Assembly: GCA_012735495.1 (NCBI GenBank)
Contig: JAAYHD010000022.1
Location: forward strand, 1-64,000
Source of the DNA: Clostridiales bacterium
Lineage (GTDB): Bacteria > Bacillota > Clostridia > Lachnospirales > Lachnospiraceae
Reading direction: 5' to 3'
DNA: 64,000 nt
In this document: piece by piece, positions 1,145 to 45,278 of the stretch
Numbering within the stretch: position 1 is the first letter of the stretch
How the letters are laid out: each line of letters starts with the position of its first letter
Program-made: the position numbers and the translations under genes
The notes under the pieces: generated by a model
Seen by the model: only the letters and a program-made list of their open reading frames with translations
Database searches by the model: none
What the model was told of the DNA's origin: nothing

Positions 1145-1867
1145 TCAACTCTGCCTGCCTTGTTTTTTCCATGGCCTGTCCTTCTTCAGCCAACCGTTCT
1201 TTTCCCAGTAATCCCTGTCCGTCATGTTCCATGTATTTGATTGCTGTATTTTTCTCATAACATTAAACATTAACCTTGTCTTGAATCCCGGTTTTGCCCT
1301 TCCTATCTTCTTCTTTATAGAATCGGCCGTTTCCTGCGTCCTTTTTATAATCCGCTCCCTTTTCTTCTCCGGTACATCGTCCCAGCAGGACGCATTCACG
1401 TTAAAACTCAGCCGGTAAATCCTTGGCACACCCCACCAGAACATCTGCCTTGCCATGGATTTGGTTACATTCCTTGCCCCGGAGCCTGCGGCCGTGGATA
1501 TTGCGACACCTATTTTGGAGAACATCTCCTTCCTCGGCCTGTGGGGCATCCACATATACCCGTAATGATCGAACAATGTCTTTAGCTGCCCCGTCATCTC
1601 AATGCAGTAAGTTGGAGAATCGAAAATTATAACATCCGACATAAGCATTGAATCCAAGATCTTTAAGGCCTTTTCCGATTGATAGCAGTTTTCCTCACCC
1701 TTTAGGATGCACCGAAAGCACCCTACACAGTACTCAGGCGTATCCTTCGGCATGAAATACTCGTGCACGACGGTTTCGCTGCCTTCAGTCAGCCGTTCTT
1801 TCAGGATTTCCGTGATGTGATATGTACTTCCCTTGTGCTGTTGGCCATGGATAATTGTTATTGTCAT
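1145..1867 (-). CDS. Iron-sulfur flavoprotein-like NAD(P)H/FMN oxidoreductase
   Basis: A 240-residue flavodoxin-fold protein. The N-terminus (TIIHGQQHKGSTYHITE) is the FMN-phosphate loop of the NADPH-dependent FMN reductase family. Cysteines at 47, 50, 53 and 61 form a C-x2-C-x2-C-x7-C cluster, which fits the compact motif CX2CX2CX4-7C that holds a [4Fe-4S] cluster in archaeal iron-sulfur flavoprotein (Isf). The family carries out low-potential electron transfer in anaerobes; the partner is unknown here. The ORF is longer than a typical Isf because of a C-terminal extension rich in Arg, Lys and Trp. The start has AAGGGG upstream with nine-base spacing. It could also be a plain flavodoxin-like reductase without a cluster. 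Confidence 0.72.
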   Translation of the reverse strand: MTITIIHGQQHKGSTYHITEILKERLTEGSETVVHEYFMPKDTPEYCVGCFRCILKGEENCYQSEKALKILDSMLMSDVIIFDSPTYCIEMTGQLKTLFDHYGYMWMPHRPRKEMFSKIGVAISTAAGSGARNVTKSMARQMFWWGVPRIYRLSFNVNASCWDDVPEKKRERIIKRTQETADSIKKKIGRAKPGFKTRLMFNVMRKIQQSNTWNMTDRDYWEKNGWLKKDRPWKKQGRQS

Positions 1868-10831: not shown

Positions 10832-11845
10832 CTACCCGTTTATATCTTTAACTGTTTCTCCCGGAAGGAGCTTTCCTTCCACAACAATTCTCTCTATAAT
10901 ATTAGCCTTTGGATTGATTATCGCTTCGATCAGCTTCTGCGCCGCGTATTTGCCCAAAGCCTTGGTGTCCTGCATATATGTAGTCAGCTTCGGATCAAGA
11001 ACCTGCGAAAGAAGAATTCCATCGTAACCGACAATTGATATATCATCCGGTATTACCAGCCCTGCTTCCCTGATGGCGTTGATTCCTCCGATGCATGAGA
11101 AATCATCGGGGAATATAATGCATGTGGGCCGGTTCTTGAGCGCCAGCAATTCTTTTGTCAGCTTGTATGTCGTCTCCGTATCATGGTATATGCCGTCCTT
11201 GACATAATCGTCCGGTATGCTGATATTGAGTTCACTCAAGGTTCTGTAGAAGCTTCCTATACGGTTCTGTGTAACGGAAGAATCGGCTCCGTGAATATAT
11301 GCTATTCTCCTGTGCCCCTTATCGTACAGATAATGTATAATCTCCCTCATGCCCTTGATATTGTCCGATACAATGGCAGTTCGGTTATCAAAAACATGGT
11401 CTATTGTAACAACCGGAAGATCACCGTTGATAAGCTCCAGAACATCAGGATCCGAAAAATCAATACATGCGATGACAACACCGTCTACTCCCCTGTATTT
11501 GCTGTGCTCATAATAGGACATCTTTCTAAGGCCCATGTGCTTGTTAATGAATGTTATATCAAAGCCCTGGCTTTCTGCTTCCACCTTGAAGCTGTCCAAC
11601 ACATTGGCAAAGTATTCATGGGTCAGACCGCTCTGGGCCTCATCCACGAACAGGACCCCGATATTATAAGTTCTGTTGGTTTTAAGGGCCCTCGCGAATG
11701 AGTTGGGGTAATATCCCATCTCCCTTGCAACTGCCAGAATATGCTGCTTTGTAGCTTCGGAAATATCACTGTGATTGTTCAAAGCCTTGCTGACGGTAGC
11801 CACCGAAACGCCGCATCTGACTGATATATCCTTGATTGAAACCAT
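10832..11845 (-). CDS. LacI/GalR-family transcriptional regulator
   Basis: This 337-residue repressor has an N-terminal helix-turn-helix (IKDISVRCGVSVATVSKALN, residues 3-22), the hinge helix (SFARALKTNRTY) and a periplasmic-binding-protein-like sugar domain from about residue 60 to the end. AGGGGA is the ribosome site. No sugar gene adjoins it: the V-ATPase operon lies downstream beyond a terminator and an RNA candidate upstream. The effector and targets are therefore unknown. A palindrome 60-78 bases upstream may be its own operator. Confidence 0.9.
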   Translation of the reverse strand: MVSIKDISVRCGVSVATVSKALNNHSDISEATKQHILAVAREMGYYPNSFARALKTNRTYNIGVLFVDEAQSGLTHEYFANVLDSFKVEAESQGFDITFINKHMGLRKMSYYEHSKYRGVDGVVIACIDFSDPDVLELINGDLPVVTIDHVFDNRTAIVSDNIKGMREIIHYLYDKGHRRIAYIHGADSSVTQNRIGSFYRTLSELNISIPDDYVKDGIYHDTETTYKLTKELLALKNRPTCIIFPDDFSCIGGINAIREAGLVIPDDISIVGYDGILLSQVLDPKLTTYMQDTKALGKYAAQKLIEAIINPKANIIERIVVEGKLLPGETVKDING

Positions 11846-11904
11846 TCGTATCCCCTACTTGCTGTTAAATTTATGCAATTACTTAATCGATTTCTAAAAT
11901 ACAT

Positions 11905-11923: not shown

Positions 11924-12131
11924 TGTGTTGATTATTTTAACTCTATTTAAATATTATTGACTAATAATTTGACTTGTTAAATATATATTACCTCTTTTAT
12001 TTGCCATATGCAAGTGTTTTTTTATGCTTTTTGCTTAATCGTTTTCGGTATTTTTAATATTTCTTTATTACTATTTCCGAAAAAATCAAAGAAAATGCCT
12101 TTTGTTTTGAATAATAAACGGAAAAACAAGA
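11924..12131. other. AT-rich intergenic DNA with no gene seen
   Basis: This stretch is strongly AT-rich and holds no plausible coding frame in either direction. Its right end carries the TTGAAT (12107-12112) and TATAAT (12132-12137) elements that could drive the RNA candidate that follows on the plus strand; the 19-base spacer is longer than ideal. Confidence 0.5.
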
Positions 12132-12139
12132 TATAATAA

Positions 12140-12335
12140 TGCACAGATACGGATAAGACTCATCGACACCATTGTGTTACCGGAATTAAACGAGTACATC
12201 CGTATCTGGATAATAGAGAGGAATGTTTGTAATTTGGTCTCAAGAATTACAGACAGCACATCAATGACAACTGAATATTGAGACACGAGACGACAGACAG
12301 CAGGGATGTAAATCCCTGCTTCTGTCATTTATGCT
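12140..12335 (+). ncRNA. Candidate structured non-coding RNA with a loop pseudoknot
   Basis: Three nested elements suggest a folded RNA of about 190 bases. P1 is an 11-bp perfect stem (12144-12154 with 12198-12208) enclosing small hairpins (ACTC/GAGT, ACAC/GTGT). P2 is a 10-bp hairpin (12225-12234 with 12245-12254, one G-U). The P2 loop bases 12237-12243 (GTCTCAA) are perfectly complementary to 12278-12284 (TTGAGAC), a 7-bp pseudoknot. P3 is a terminator-like hairpin (12292-12326). TATAAT lies at 12132-12137. It is not upstream of any plus-strand gene and converges on the channel gene, so it looks like a stand-alone RNA. I could not assign it to a known family; P3 alone could also end the channel transcript. 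Confidence 0.5.
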
Positions 12336-12344
12336 ATTCCATTT

Positions 12345-13583
12345 CTATTCTGCATATTTGCGAAGGTCATAACCCGAAGGAGCCTGGTAAATCCTTAGTC
12401 CGAATTCCTTGGCAACCGCATATATGTGATCGAAAATGTCAGACTGGACCTTCTCGTAATTAACCCATGAAGTGTCTTTGGTAAATGCGTAGATTTCCAA
12501 AGGTATGCCGGTTTCACCCGGCGCCAACTGGCGTACCATCATAATCATGTCACGGTTGATGCCTGGATGATTGCTTATATAATTTTGAAGATAAGCACGG
12601 AATGTTCCCAGATTGGTCATGCGTCTTCCGTTTATTAACTGTCCGGTGTCTATATTATTGCTTAAGTTATACTCTTCAATCTCCTTCTCCTTGTTTATAA
12701 TATAGTCTTTCAGGTAATGCACTTTTTTAAATTTCTCAATCATTTCCCCGGTACAGAACATAACGGAGTTGACGTCTATATATATTGCCCGTTTTATTCT
12801 TCTGCCGCCCGACGCAAACATCCCTCTCCAGTTTTTGAATGAATCGGAAACGAGCGCATACGCGGGTATGGTTACATATGTCTTGTCCCAGTTCTGAACC
12901 TTTACGGTATTCAGGGTTATGTCCACGACATCCCCATCAGCGCCGTACTTCTCCATCTCAATCCAATCGCCGATCCTAAGCATATCGTTTGATGTCAGCA
13001 TTATGCCCGCTATAAATCCCAGTATTGCGTCCTTGAATACAAAGGAGAATACCGCCGCCAGCGCTCCGATGCTGCTTAGGAGCAACAGCGGGCTCTGTCC
13101 GATCAGCGTTGCTATGATTACAATGCCGATCACAAGAAATGCCGCAATCTTTACAATTTGCAGAAGGCCTTTTATCGGCCTGACCTTTGAGACGGGTTTT
13201 TTACGGTATAAATCATCGATTGAATCAAGCAGCGAGCTTATGACAAACATGAGCACAACCAATACATAGGCTGAAGCCAGCCGTTCGACCACTCCGGCAA
13301 AAGCCTTATTCTCATAAATGCCGGACAGGCTGTAGAATATTATCCCCGGTGCAATCATAACCGCCCGGTGGACAAACCTTCTCTCCAACAGGACATCGTC
13401 CCACTCATGCTTGCTTCTCTTTGCTATTTTTGATACTATGCCGATAACTATTTTCTTCAGTATAAGGTTGATAAGTATACAGACAGCAATTATTGCGAGC
13501 GTGATGGCAAGCTCAGCCAACATACCCGCAATTTTATCATCCGCACCCCTATCAATAAAATAGTTGGTCAGCAGATCCTTCAT
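12345..13583 (-). CDS. MscS-family mechanosensitive channel (YbdG-like)
   Basis: A 412-residue membrane protein. About five hydrophobic helices precede the MscS pore and beta domain, with GFIAGIMLTSNDMLRIGDWI at about 205-225 and the segment DVVDITLNTVKVQNWDKTYVTI after it. The long C-terminal extension (SDSFKNWRGM, RRIKRAIYIDV) matches the YbdG/MscM subgroup rather than short MscS. It protects against hypo-osmotic shock by releasing solutes. GGGAGG is the ribosome site. It lies 39 bases downstream of the papain-like gene on the same strand. Confidence 0.88.
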   Translation of the reverse strand: MKDLLTNYFIDRGADDKIAGMLAELAITLAIIAVCILINLILKKIVIGIVSKIAKRSKHEWDDVLLERRFVHRAVMIAPGIIFYSLSGIYENKAFAGVVERLASAYVLVVLMFVISSLLDSIDDLYRKKPVSKVRPIKGLLQIVKIAAFLVIGIVIIATLIGQSPLLLLSSIGALAAVFSFVFKDAILGFIAGIMLTSNDMLRIGDWIEMEKYGADGDVVDITLNTVKVQNWDKTYVTIPAYALVSDSFKNWRGMFASGGRRIKRAIYIDVNSVMFCTGEMIEKFKKVHYLKDYIINKEKEIEEYNLSNNIDTGQLINGRRMTNLGTFRAYLQNYISNHPGINRDMIMMVRQLAPGETGIPLEIYAFTKDTSWVNYEKVQSDIFDHIYAVAKEFGLRIYQAPSGYDLRKYAE

Positions 13584-15275: not shown

Positions 15276-15767
15276 ATGAGAAAAAAAGCAGCAGTTTTGA
15301 TGGGCAGTGATTCGGACCTGCCCGTTGTCCAGGGTGCTATCCGCACTCTTAAGGATTTTGGTGTTGAAACCGAGGTTCATATCATGAGCGCACACCGCAC
15401 ACCCCACAAGGTTATGGAGTTTGCGTCAGGCGCAAGGGAAAACGGCTTCGGCGTTATCATATGCGCGGCAGGAAAAGCGGCTCATCTTGCCGGAGTGGTT
15501 GCATCCCATACCACCCTGCCTGTAATAGGTATTCCCATGAAATCTTCGGCCCTCGACGGTCTTGACGCCTTACTGTCCACCGTCCAGATGCCGAAGGGAA
15601 TTCCCGTAGCCACGGTAGCCATTGACGGAGCCGACAACGCGGCGCTGCTTGCGGTTCAAATTCTTGCCGTAAATGACGAAGAACTGGCGAAGAAGCTCCA
15701 GGATATGAGAACTAAAATGACCGCCGAAATAGCGGAAAAGGACAAAAAGCTTCAGGAGAAACTGTAA
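15276..15767 (+). CDS. purE: N5-carboxyaminoimidazole ribonucleotide mutase
   Basis: This 163-residue class I PurE converts N5-CAIR to CAIR in purine synthesis. The signature [10 protein letters not shown] (residues 7-16), the SAHRTPHKV segment with the catalytic His (residues 39-47) and the [17 protein letters not shown] loop are intact. GGGAGG is the ribosome site. It stands alone: no purK or other pur gene is in the window, and a hairpin terminator follows, so it is a single-gene transcript with its own promoter. Confidence 0.95.
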
Positions 15768-44984: not shown

Positions 44985-45278
44985 ATTAAAAAACTCCCGT
45001 CCTTATTCAAAAGGACGGGAGTTAATCCCGTGTTACCACCTAATATTCACAGGCAACTCACATTGCCTGCCTCACAGAGTACGGCTTCCGCGATACCCTT
45101 GCACATGTTAACGGTGTGCTCTCCGTCGCAGCCTACTCACCATGCGTTTTCGGTGCGCGACTCCAAGATGTATTCACATTTTCTATTCATGAGCCTCTCA
45201 TCAACCGGCATCTTTCTGTATGAAATCAAAAATGCTACTCTTTCTTTTCACAGTCTTTATACAGTCCTATAATTGTTG
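44985..45278 (-). ncRNA. Tyrosine T-box leader
   Basis: The leader runs from about 45278 to 44985 on the minus strand. The specifier loop reads GAATACA (45174-45168), with UAC at 45172-45170 for tyrosine. The T-box core reads AGGTGGTAACACGGG (45041-45027), a variant of the AGGGTGGNACCGCGG consensus that pairs with the tRNA acceptor end. A terminator (45013-45023 with 44992-45002, 11 bp) is followed by six T. The antiterminator uses part of the terminator arm, so uncharged tRNA-Tyr should raise tyrS expression. Confidence 0.9.

Follow-up and report, generated by a model that had tools for sequence, protein, structure and literature searches.

In the window, as we call the whole 64,000-nucleotide stretch of DNA that was analysed, a divergent LacI-family regulator gene (10832-11845, minus strand; Pfam PF00356 and PF13377) and a convergent mscS-type channel gene (12345-13583, minus strand; PF00924 and PF21082) enclose a plus-strand region with the features of a small structured RNA. 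Genes named by eye as V-ATPase subunits lie beyond the LacI-type regulator. The next recognised plus-strand gene, purE-like by eye, starts at 15276, and the initial observation that no plus-strand gene lies behind the structure was correct. A riboswitch, T-box or other cis-regulatory leader was rejected, since the convergent mscS gene follows and the next plus-strand gene is so distant; a T-box leader occurs elsewhere in the window (45008-45260, minus strand, 115.3 bits). A minus-strand ORF at 12086-12328 matches no Pfam family and was taken as spurious. Inspection by eye of the DNA separating the RNA from the LacI-type gene revealed two LacI-operator-like boxes (acttaatcgatttct at 11881-11895 and gcttaatcgttttcgg at 12033-12048), and several relatives have similar boxes. 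The LacI-type regulator may control the RNA.

A TATAAT element at 12132-12137 was read from the window sequence ahead of the structure. Only this -10 is visible: none of the seven promoter-like sites scored falls at 12132, and no -35/-10 pair was scored. The 11-bp stem P1, formed by 12144-12154 with 12198-12208 (CAGATACGGAT/ATCCGTATCTG) and identified by folding and covariation, starts at about the expected 5' end of the RNA. It is followed by the P2 hairpin (12224-12235 with 12244-12255, loop 12236-12243), whose loop contains the strand GTCTCAA (12237-12243), the exact reverse complement of TTGAGAC at 12278-12284. These two strands would form a pseudoknot. The segment between P2 and the second strand (12256-12277) is the site at which relatives carry a module comprising a further helix (P3), a Shine-Dalgarno (SD)-like stretch, a UUG codon and a short ORF. 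Alignment with L002-L010 and the inventory described below show that this site is empty in the window copy, and its 3' end, ACTGAATA, is part of a block common to many module-bearing copies. A terminator-like hairpin (12292-12307 with 12312-12326) was found by folding and by a hairpin scan, which listed its core at 12299-12320 (one found, against a shuffle mean of 0.4). This hairpin is perhaps bidirectional, serving the convergent mscS gene too. All of these elements lie on the plus strand.

The sequence-only reading had described the TATAAT, the 11-bp closing stem, the perfect loop complementarity and the terminator-like hairpin, all of which are present; its 10-bp hairpin also exists, although with a length of 12 bp when G-U pairs are included. 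Its further statement that such nested complementarity exceeds chance agrees with the folding energy of 12142-12332 (191 nt): computed without the pseudoknot, it was -60.8 kcal/mol, whereas shuffles averaged -36.67 (z = -6.17; no shuffle of 200 did as well). When the letters of the 44-nt segment 12257-12300 were shuffled, 105 of 20,000 shuffles (about 0.5%) contained a perfect 7-mer partner of the P2 loop. We also weighed, by eye, a helix joining the P1-P2 linker to the 3' block, and did not retain it.

Covariance-model searching, which had been proposed with raiA and 6S RNA in mind, was performed with Rfam 15 (cmscan). At gathering thresholds, no family, raiA and 6S included, was found at the RNA, either in the window or across the loci of the 50 copies; the sole match in the relatives' loci was a tRNA in L142, away from the RNA. 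At relaxed E-values (E ≤ 10) there were five matches near the locus; those at the locus were rejected as chance-level (DUF2800 scored 22 bits where the cut-off is 60.2, and FinP 18.9 where it is 45), and a relaxed-E search of six relatives gave chance-level matches only. The self-cleaving ribozyme families of Rfam were matched neither at gathering thresholds nor among the five relaxed matches, so the suggestion of a catalytic RNA is unsupported. A separate 6S RNA scored over its cut-off elsewhere in 10 of 10 genomes tested, including that of the window (RF00013 at G000:C26:160545-160724). Genome searches for raiA gave 0 of 6 and 0 of 79 genomes over the cut-off, in runs in which no control reached the cut-off and the controls of the second run were silent. 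Weak matches were obtained in 13 phage records (best E 0.7), and two pattern matches in viral contigs were rejected as ordinary coding sequence by eye, without P2 or the pseudoknot. Literature searches on Herbinix small RNA, Anaerocolumna noncoding RNA and general terms returned nothing on this RNA, and the word "Lachno" is absent from the main text of ncRNA surveys of 26 and 50 genomes (the latter PMC11109978).

The RNA recurs in relatives. A DNA search of 41 genomes (E ≤ 1e-5) gave no matches outside the genus of the window, Herbinix/Mobilitalea. The P2 pattern occurred in 18 contigs: several of Herbinix sp., one of Mobilitalea sibirica DSM 26468, and the rest from Clostridiales/Lachnospiraceae MAGs, one Bacillota and one Anaerolineaceae. 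We built two covariance models, each of which matches its own building sequences by construction: R1, from P2 and the following conserved segment of 22 own-genus sequences, and R2, from 37 copies, eight of them from a second Lachnospiraceae genus, g41. With R1, matches at E ≤ 0.1 were obtained in 29 of the 34 own-genus genomes, including seven not used in building; five gave no R1 match, and copies without the module score poorly with the models. The window copy itself reaches only 31 bits with R1 because the segment after P2 is missing. R1, built without g41, matched five genomes of that genus at E ≤ 3.5e-7, and R2 matched 10 of 15 at E ≤ 1.2e-5; the other five gave weaker matches only, which in two cases (L124/L155 and L125/L154) are related SD-ORF RNAs.

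Wider draws with R2 added little. Ten of 295 genomes matched in the order-wide draw, in which G027, the sole representative of another family, was the one further genome with a clear copy (E 8.1e-8); beyond G000 and G027, four of the eight remaining matches were inspected (L143, L144, L145 and L148). In the family draw (E ≤ 0.05), 12 of 397 genomes matched, with clear copies only in G005, G000 and G393, and three of the nine other weak matches were inspected (L133, L135 and L137). None of these seven inspected weak matches has P2 plus the pseudoknot by eye; L137 is one of the related SD-ORF RNAs. The class therefore looks narrow, being found in the Lachnospirales and mostly in two genera, as judged with models that see the short forms poorly.

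Our inventory comprises 50 copies in 40 genomes: 31 in 29 own-genus genomes, 18 in 10 g41 genomes and one in G027. Forty copies are long, carrying the module, and ten are short, lacking it. Two of the short copies are that of the window and L009 (genome G022); the other eight are in g41, each lying in tandem ahead of a long copy (L120, L121, L122, L123, L092, L126, L152 and L153), so that short and long forms occur together in 8 of 10 g41 genomes. In G047 and G049, both own-genus genomes, a pair of long copies lies in tandem. Three further matches were left out: a partial second one in G015 (C41), a second, weak one in G023 and a contig-edge fragment, L159 (G453). When compared with L002 and L003, the window copy shows a gap that opens immediately behind P2 and closes near the conserved block ACTGAATATTGAGAC, much as a clean deletion would leave. 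One copy, L011 of G007 (about 1590-1710), has a P1 loop grown by about 110 nt through tandem ACATG(C)TTAAACC-like repeats, with the rest of the RNA kept.

The copies appear to be stand-alone genes with their own promoter and 3' end hairpin. A -10-like motif lies just before P1 in all 50 (CATAATA in 32, TATAATA in 11, AATAATA in four and CATACTA in three), as found with a search pattern that admitted only such forms. By eye, the RNA of several relatives lies behind the end of a V-ATPase-subunit-like gene and faces mscS with no LacI gene between, while at four g41 loci (L119, L118, L092 and L122) a small heavy-metal-domain-like gene lies upstream instead (by eye); these differences in neighbours between genera argue for a free-standing RNA. 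Together with the covariation of the 3' hairpin and the tandem copies, these observations point to a stand-alone structured RNA, and with the Rfam result they are consistent with its initial description as one without a known family.

The compensatory changes that had been suggested as a check in homologues were observed in both P2 and P1. Three alignments were used: A5, with 37 of the 40 long copies, A6, with 20, and A7, with nine. In P2 (37 long copies), 7 of 11 pairs show two-sided changes; 93.8% of cells are paired, against 88.5% in shuffles and at most 50.1% in slid versions, and there are 26 two-sided cells against 7.5 in shuffles (0 of 500 reached this). P1 was parsed in 44 of 50 copies, the missing ones being six g41 long copies, by taking the best-pairing candidate 3' site, which favours pairing and whose choice looks wrong in L050 at least. 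Its first pair is A-U in 22, G-C in 12, G-U in two and unpaired in eight of the 44; its seventh pair is G-C in 28, A-U in four, C-G in three and G-U in one; and its ninth is A-U in 15, C-G in 11, U-G in four, and G-U and U-A in one each. The 3' hairpin has two-sided changes at several pairs, for example at columns 311-350 (C-G in eight and U-A in five, n = 13).

All five core positions of the pseudoknot pair in 46 of 50 copies and the remaining four pair 7/8, although these counts are partly built in, as the strands were found by sequence pattern and, in four copies, by eye for complementarity. The loop core GUCUC is identical in all 40 long copies and in six of the ten short copies. Three short copies of one clade have AUCCY against GGGUU, in which G-C has become A-U and U-A has become C-G, with a U-U mismatch at the second core position; a fourth has UUCUC against GAGAU, with the first pair lost. 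Elsewhere, U-G replaces U-A in two copies, and in G027 an A-U has become G-C at the sixth position. The two-sided changes perhaps represent only two or three events; with so few independent events, and strands located by sequence, the pseudoknot is conserved but lightly tested by covariation. With P2, P3 and the pseudoknot taken together in A6, 12 pairs change on both sides, against 6.3 in shuffles (0 of 500); sliding the structure by -2 gives 11 such pairs, but with 44.2% of cells paired against 85.6%. At the level of sequence, comparison establishes P1, P2, the 3' hairpin, the conservation, and the presence or absence of the module and, less firmly, the pseudoknot and P3.

In the long copies, a spacer comes after P2, then an SD-like stretch of the type of GGAGAUGAU or GAGGUGGUU, and then a UUG that opens a short ORF. 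With a start-codon pattern that accepted only ATG or TTG followed by GAC, GAT, AAA, GGA or GTT, UUG was found in all 40 long copies, and the next codon is Asp (GAC or GAT, the latter in two of the 40) in 37. The invariant UUG may reflect an RNA-level constraint. Pairing of the SD-like stretch with a presumed 16S tail was computed for 41 sites, those of the 40 long copies plus L009; the median was -12.1 kcal/mol, against -10.35 for 70 uncurated window ORFs of at least 150 aa. An unusually strong SD was ruled out, as 21 of these 70 ORFs reach the median of the RNA sites, which makes the sites ordinary. The ORFs span 2-29 codons and share little sequence across groups beyond the first residues, after which no peptide conservation was detected between groups. 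Counted after the third codon, ORF lengths in frame 0 and the other two frames have medians of 13, 6 and 7 codons and means of 10.8, 10.3 and 8.8. The putative start site is conserved, and the peptide, as judged from its coding sequence, is not.

P3 can form from just after P2, often reaching the SD-like stretch, whose GAG then faces a CUC of the 3' block. Its own strands pair better than swapped strands in 35 of 40 copies (mean -13.44 against -10.66 kcal/mol), and their sum of -537.6, against a swapped mean of -429.3, was reached in none of 10,000 permutations, a contrast that relatedness inflates. In the P3 columns, 74.1% of cells are paired against 70.3% in shuffles (0 of 500). Two-sided changes affect eight pairs against 4.7 in shuffles (18 of 500), and a slide of -2 gives 10. 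Against shuffled versions of the 3' strand, only 15 of 40 copies do better at the 5% level, and in nine own-genus copies RNAalifold favours pairing other than P3. These comparisons moderately support P3 as a real helix.

Several related arrangements were seen. In L009 (about 1500-1715, minus strand), a small hairpin, GGUGUAAC/GUUAUACC, is possible after P2 by eye; GAGGUG lies at its base and the loop contains an AUG (MVIPDN*), so that it is perhaps a minimal start-site arm. In L160 of genome G445 (about 1501-1577), the leader of an AraC-like gene (1577-2524, identified by eye from its translation) contains a nearly unchanged version of the SD-UUG-MDWLLS* segment of the g41 RNA from the same genome. 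L124, L125 and L137 (about 1501-1650) hold other small RNA-like genes, whose SD-UUG-GAC starts are nearly identical (MDYVFSQKM, MDYVISHKM and MDYVSSHMEDVKY) and which carry a terminator-like hairpin, with no P2 or pseudoknot by eye; they possibly form a related class.

Our preferred explanation, to which we give slightly less than an even chance, is that the locus is a member of a stand-alone, trans-acting RNA class not yet catalogued; ribosome engagement would set the state of the long form, and the window copy would be the short core. The structure and conservation of this class are well supported by the alignments; its expression, translation, switching and trans action are what we infer. 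The region 12132-12326 (plus strand) would encode one member, each copy having its own promoter and a strong 3' hairpin. P1 would cap the 5' end, and pairing of the P2 loop with the strand just before the 3' hairpin would give one compact closed fold. In the long form, the region closed by the pseudoknot would be the P3 arm with the ribosome-binding site and the UUG; P3 could hide the start site, and entry of a ribosome would unfold P3 and might also perturb the pseudoknot. The core of P1, P2, the pseudoknot and the 3' hairpin is thus proposed to be a stable RNA that regulates in trans, with the state of the long form set by ribosome engagement and the peptide itself unimportant. In line with an added demand on the loop core in the long form, where GUCUC could alternatively pair with GAGAU in the SD, the core is altered only in short copies; this alteration is limited to one clade, however, and such pairing to an SD is not specific. 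The window copy would consist of the core only, with no ribosome module.

A more specific version is rather doubtful: the pseudoknot-closed fold would offer a decoy or gated start, an initiating 30S subunit would be captured at the UUG, engagement rather than the peptide would decide whether P3 and the pseudoknot form, and the tandem short copies would be permanently closed.

The strongest rival, which we consider unlikely though deserving of weight, accepts the same RNA class and holds that the module is untranslated, the purine-rich GGAGAUGAU...UUGGAC being a protein- or RNA-binding site that resembles a start site. The identity of the UUG in 40 of 40 copies and the loss of peptide conservation after the third codon would be expected of such a site, and blocks such as CUCA..AUCGA, compared by eye in the alignment, are kept regardless of whether the ORF covers them. 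However, the SD-to-start spacing is like that of a normal ribosome-binding site (by eye), and the anti-SD pairing energy is within the range of the window's ORFs. The synonymous exchange of GAC and GAT (GAT in two of 40) and the near-identical SD-UUG-ORF segment in the AraC-like gene leader of L160 also argue for a start site.

It is improbable that the window copy is a decaying, functionless remnant of a long RNA that has lost its active module. It is the sole copy reported by the models in its genome, the module is missing, and its 3' flank retains a block common to the long forms; yet every element of the core is intact, from P1 with its 11 bp through P2 and the 7-bp pseudoknot to the 3' hairpin. 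Moreover, short forms stand beside long ones in 8 of 10 g41 genomes with the pseudoknot kept, in three of them through two-sided changes. Less probable again is a small-protein mRNA, in which the peptide is the product and the structure merely stabilises the message. The RBS-like site with a short ORF in 40 copies, the peptides shared by near relatives (for example MDWLSVTKNYYFR in L118 and L119) and the somewhat higher median ORF length in frame 0 (13 against 6 and 7 codons) are consistent with it, but across groups the ORFs, 2-29 codons long, are largely dissimilar in sequence past the first residues, mean ORF lengths are nearly equal between frames, and ten copies, that of the window included, lack the module. 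A divergent raiA or 6S RNA, which a stand-alone pseudoknotted Clostridia RNA of 190-420 nt might suggest (raiA has two pseudoknots), is highly improbable, as no Rfam model, those of raiA and 6S included, matched at the RNA and a separate 6S RNA exceeds its cut-off in 10 of 10 genomes.

This study adds an uncatalogued structured RNA class backed by compensatory changes. The RNA is present, in its long form (L117/L012), in a cultured relative, Mobilitalea sibirica DSM 26468, in which it could be tested. If ribosomes engage the module, the tandem short and long copies would provide a natural comparison, with and without it, of the coupling of translation to folding in a stand-alone RNA. If the gated-start version is true, the RNA would be a translation-sensing riboregulator acting in trans.

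Known systems share parts of this design. Excerpts of the 50-genome survey (PMC11109978) describe a motif with two stems, an SD-like stretch between them and a putative start codon; the uORFs in these excerpts precede a main gene, whereas no gene follows our RNA. The raiA motif RNA (RF03072), described in excerpts of PMC11706538 as the ModT of C. difficile, where it acts in trans, with a consensus model of two pseudoknots and eight paired regions, is likewise a stand-alone, pseudoknotted Clostridia RNA with a 3' terminator. In contrast, our RNA has one identified pseudoknot, three to four stems and an optional start-site module; its pseudoknot joins the P2 loop to a strand beside the 3' hairpin, and the raiA model gave no match. 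The RNA resembles 6S RNA (RF00013) in its size range and stand-alone nature, but no long bulged rod was seen in it, and 6S is encoded separately in 10 of 10 genomes. Dual-function sRNAs include RNAIII, SgrS and SR1. Like these, the long form would be a structured RNA with a short ORF inside it, here a predicted one; it differs in that the ORF body is not conserved and that an ORF-less form exists in tandem. On this comparative evidence the RNA is a new family of stand-alone structured RNA, without membership in a known family, whose proposed working resembles that of the dual-function RNAs.
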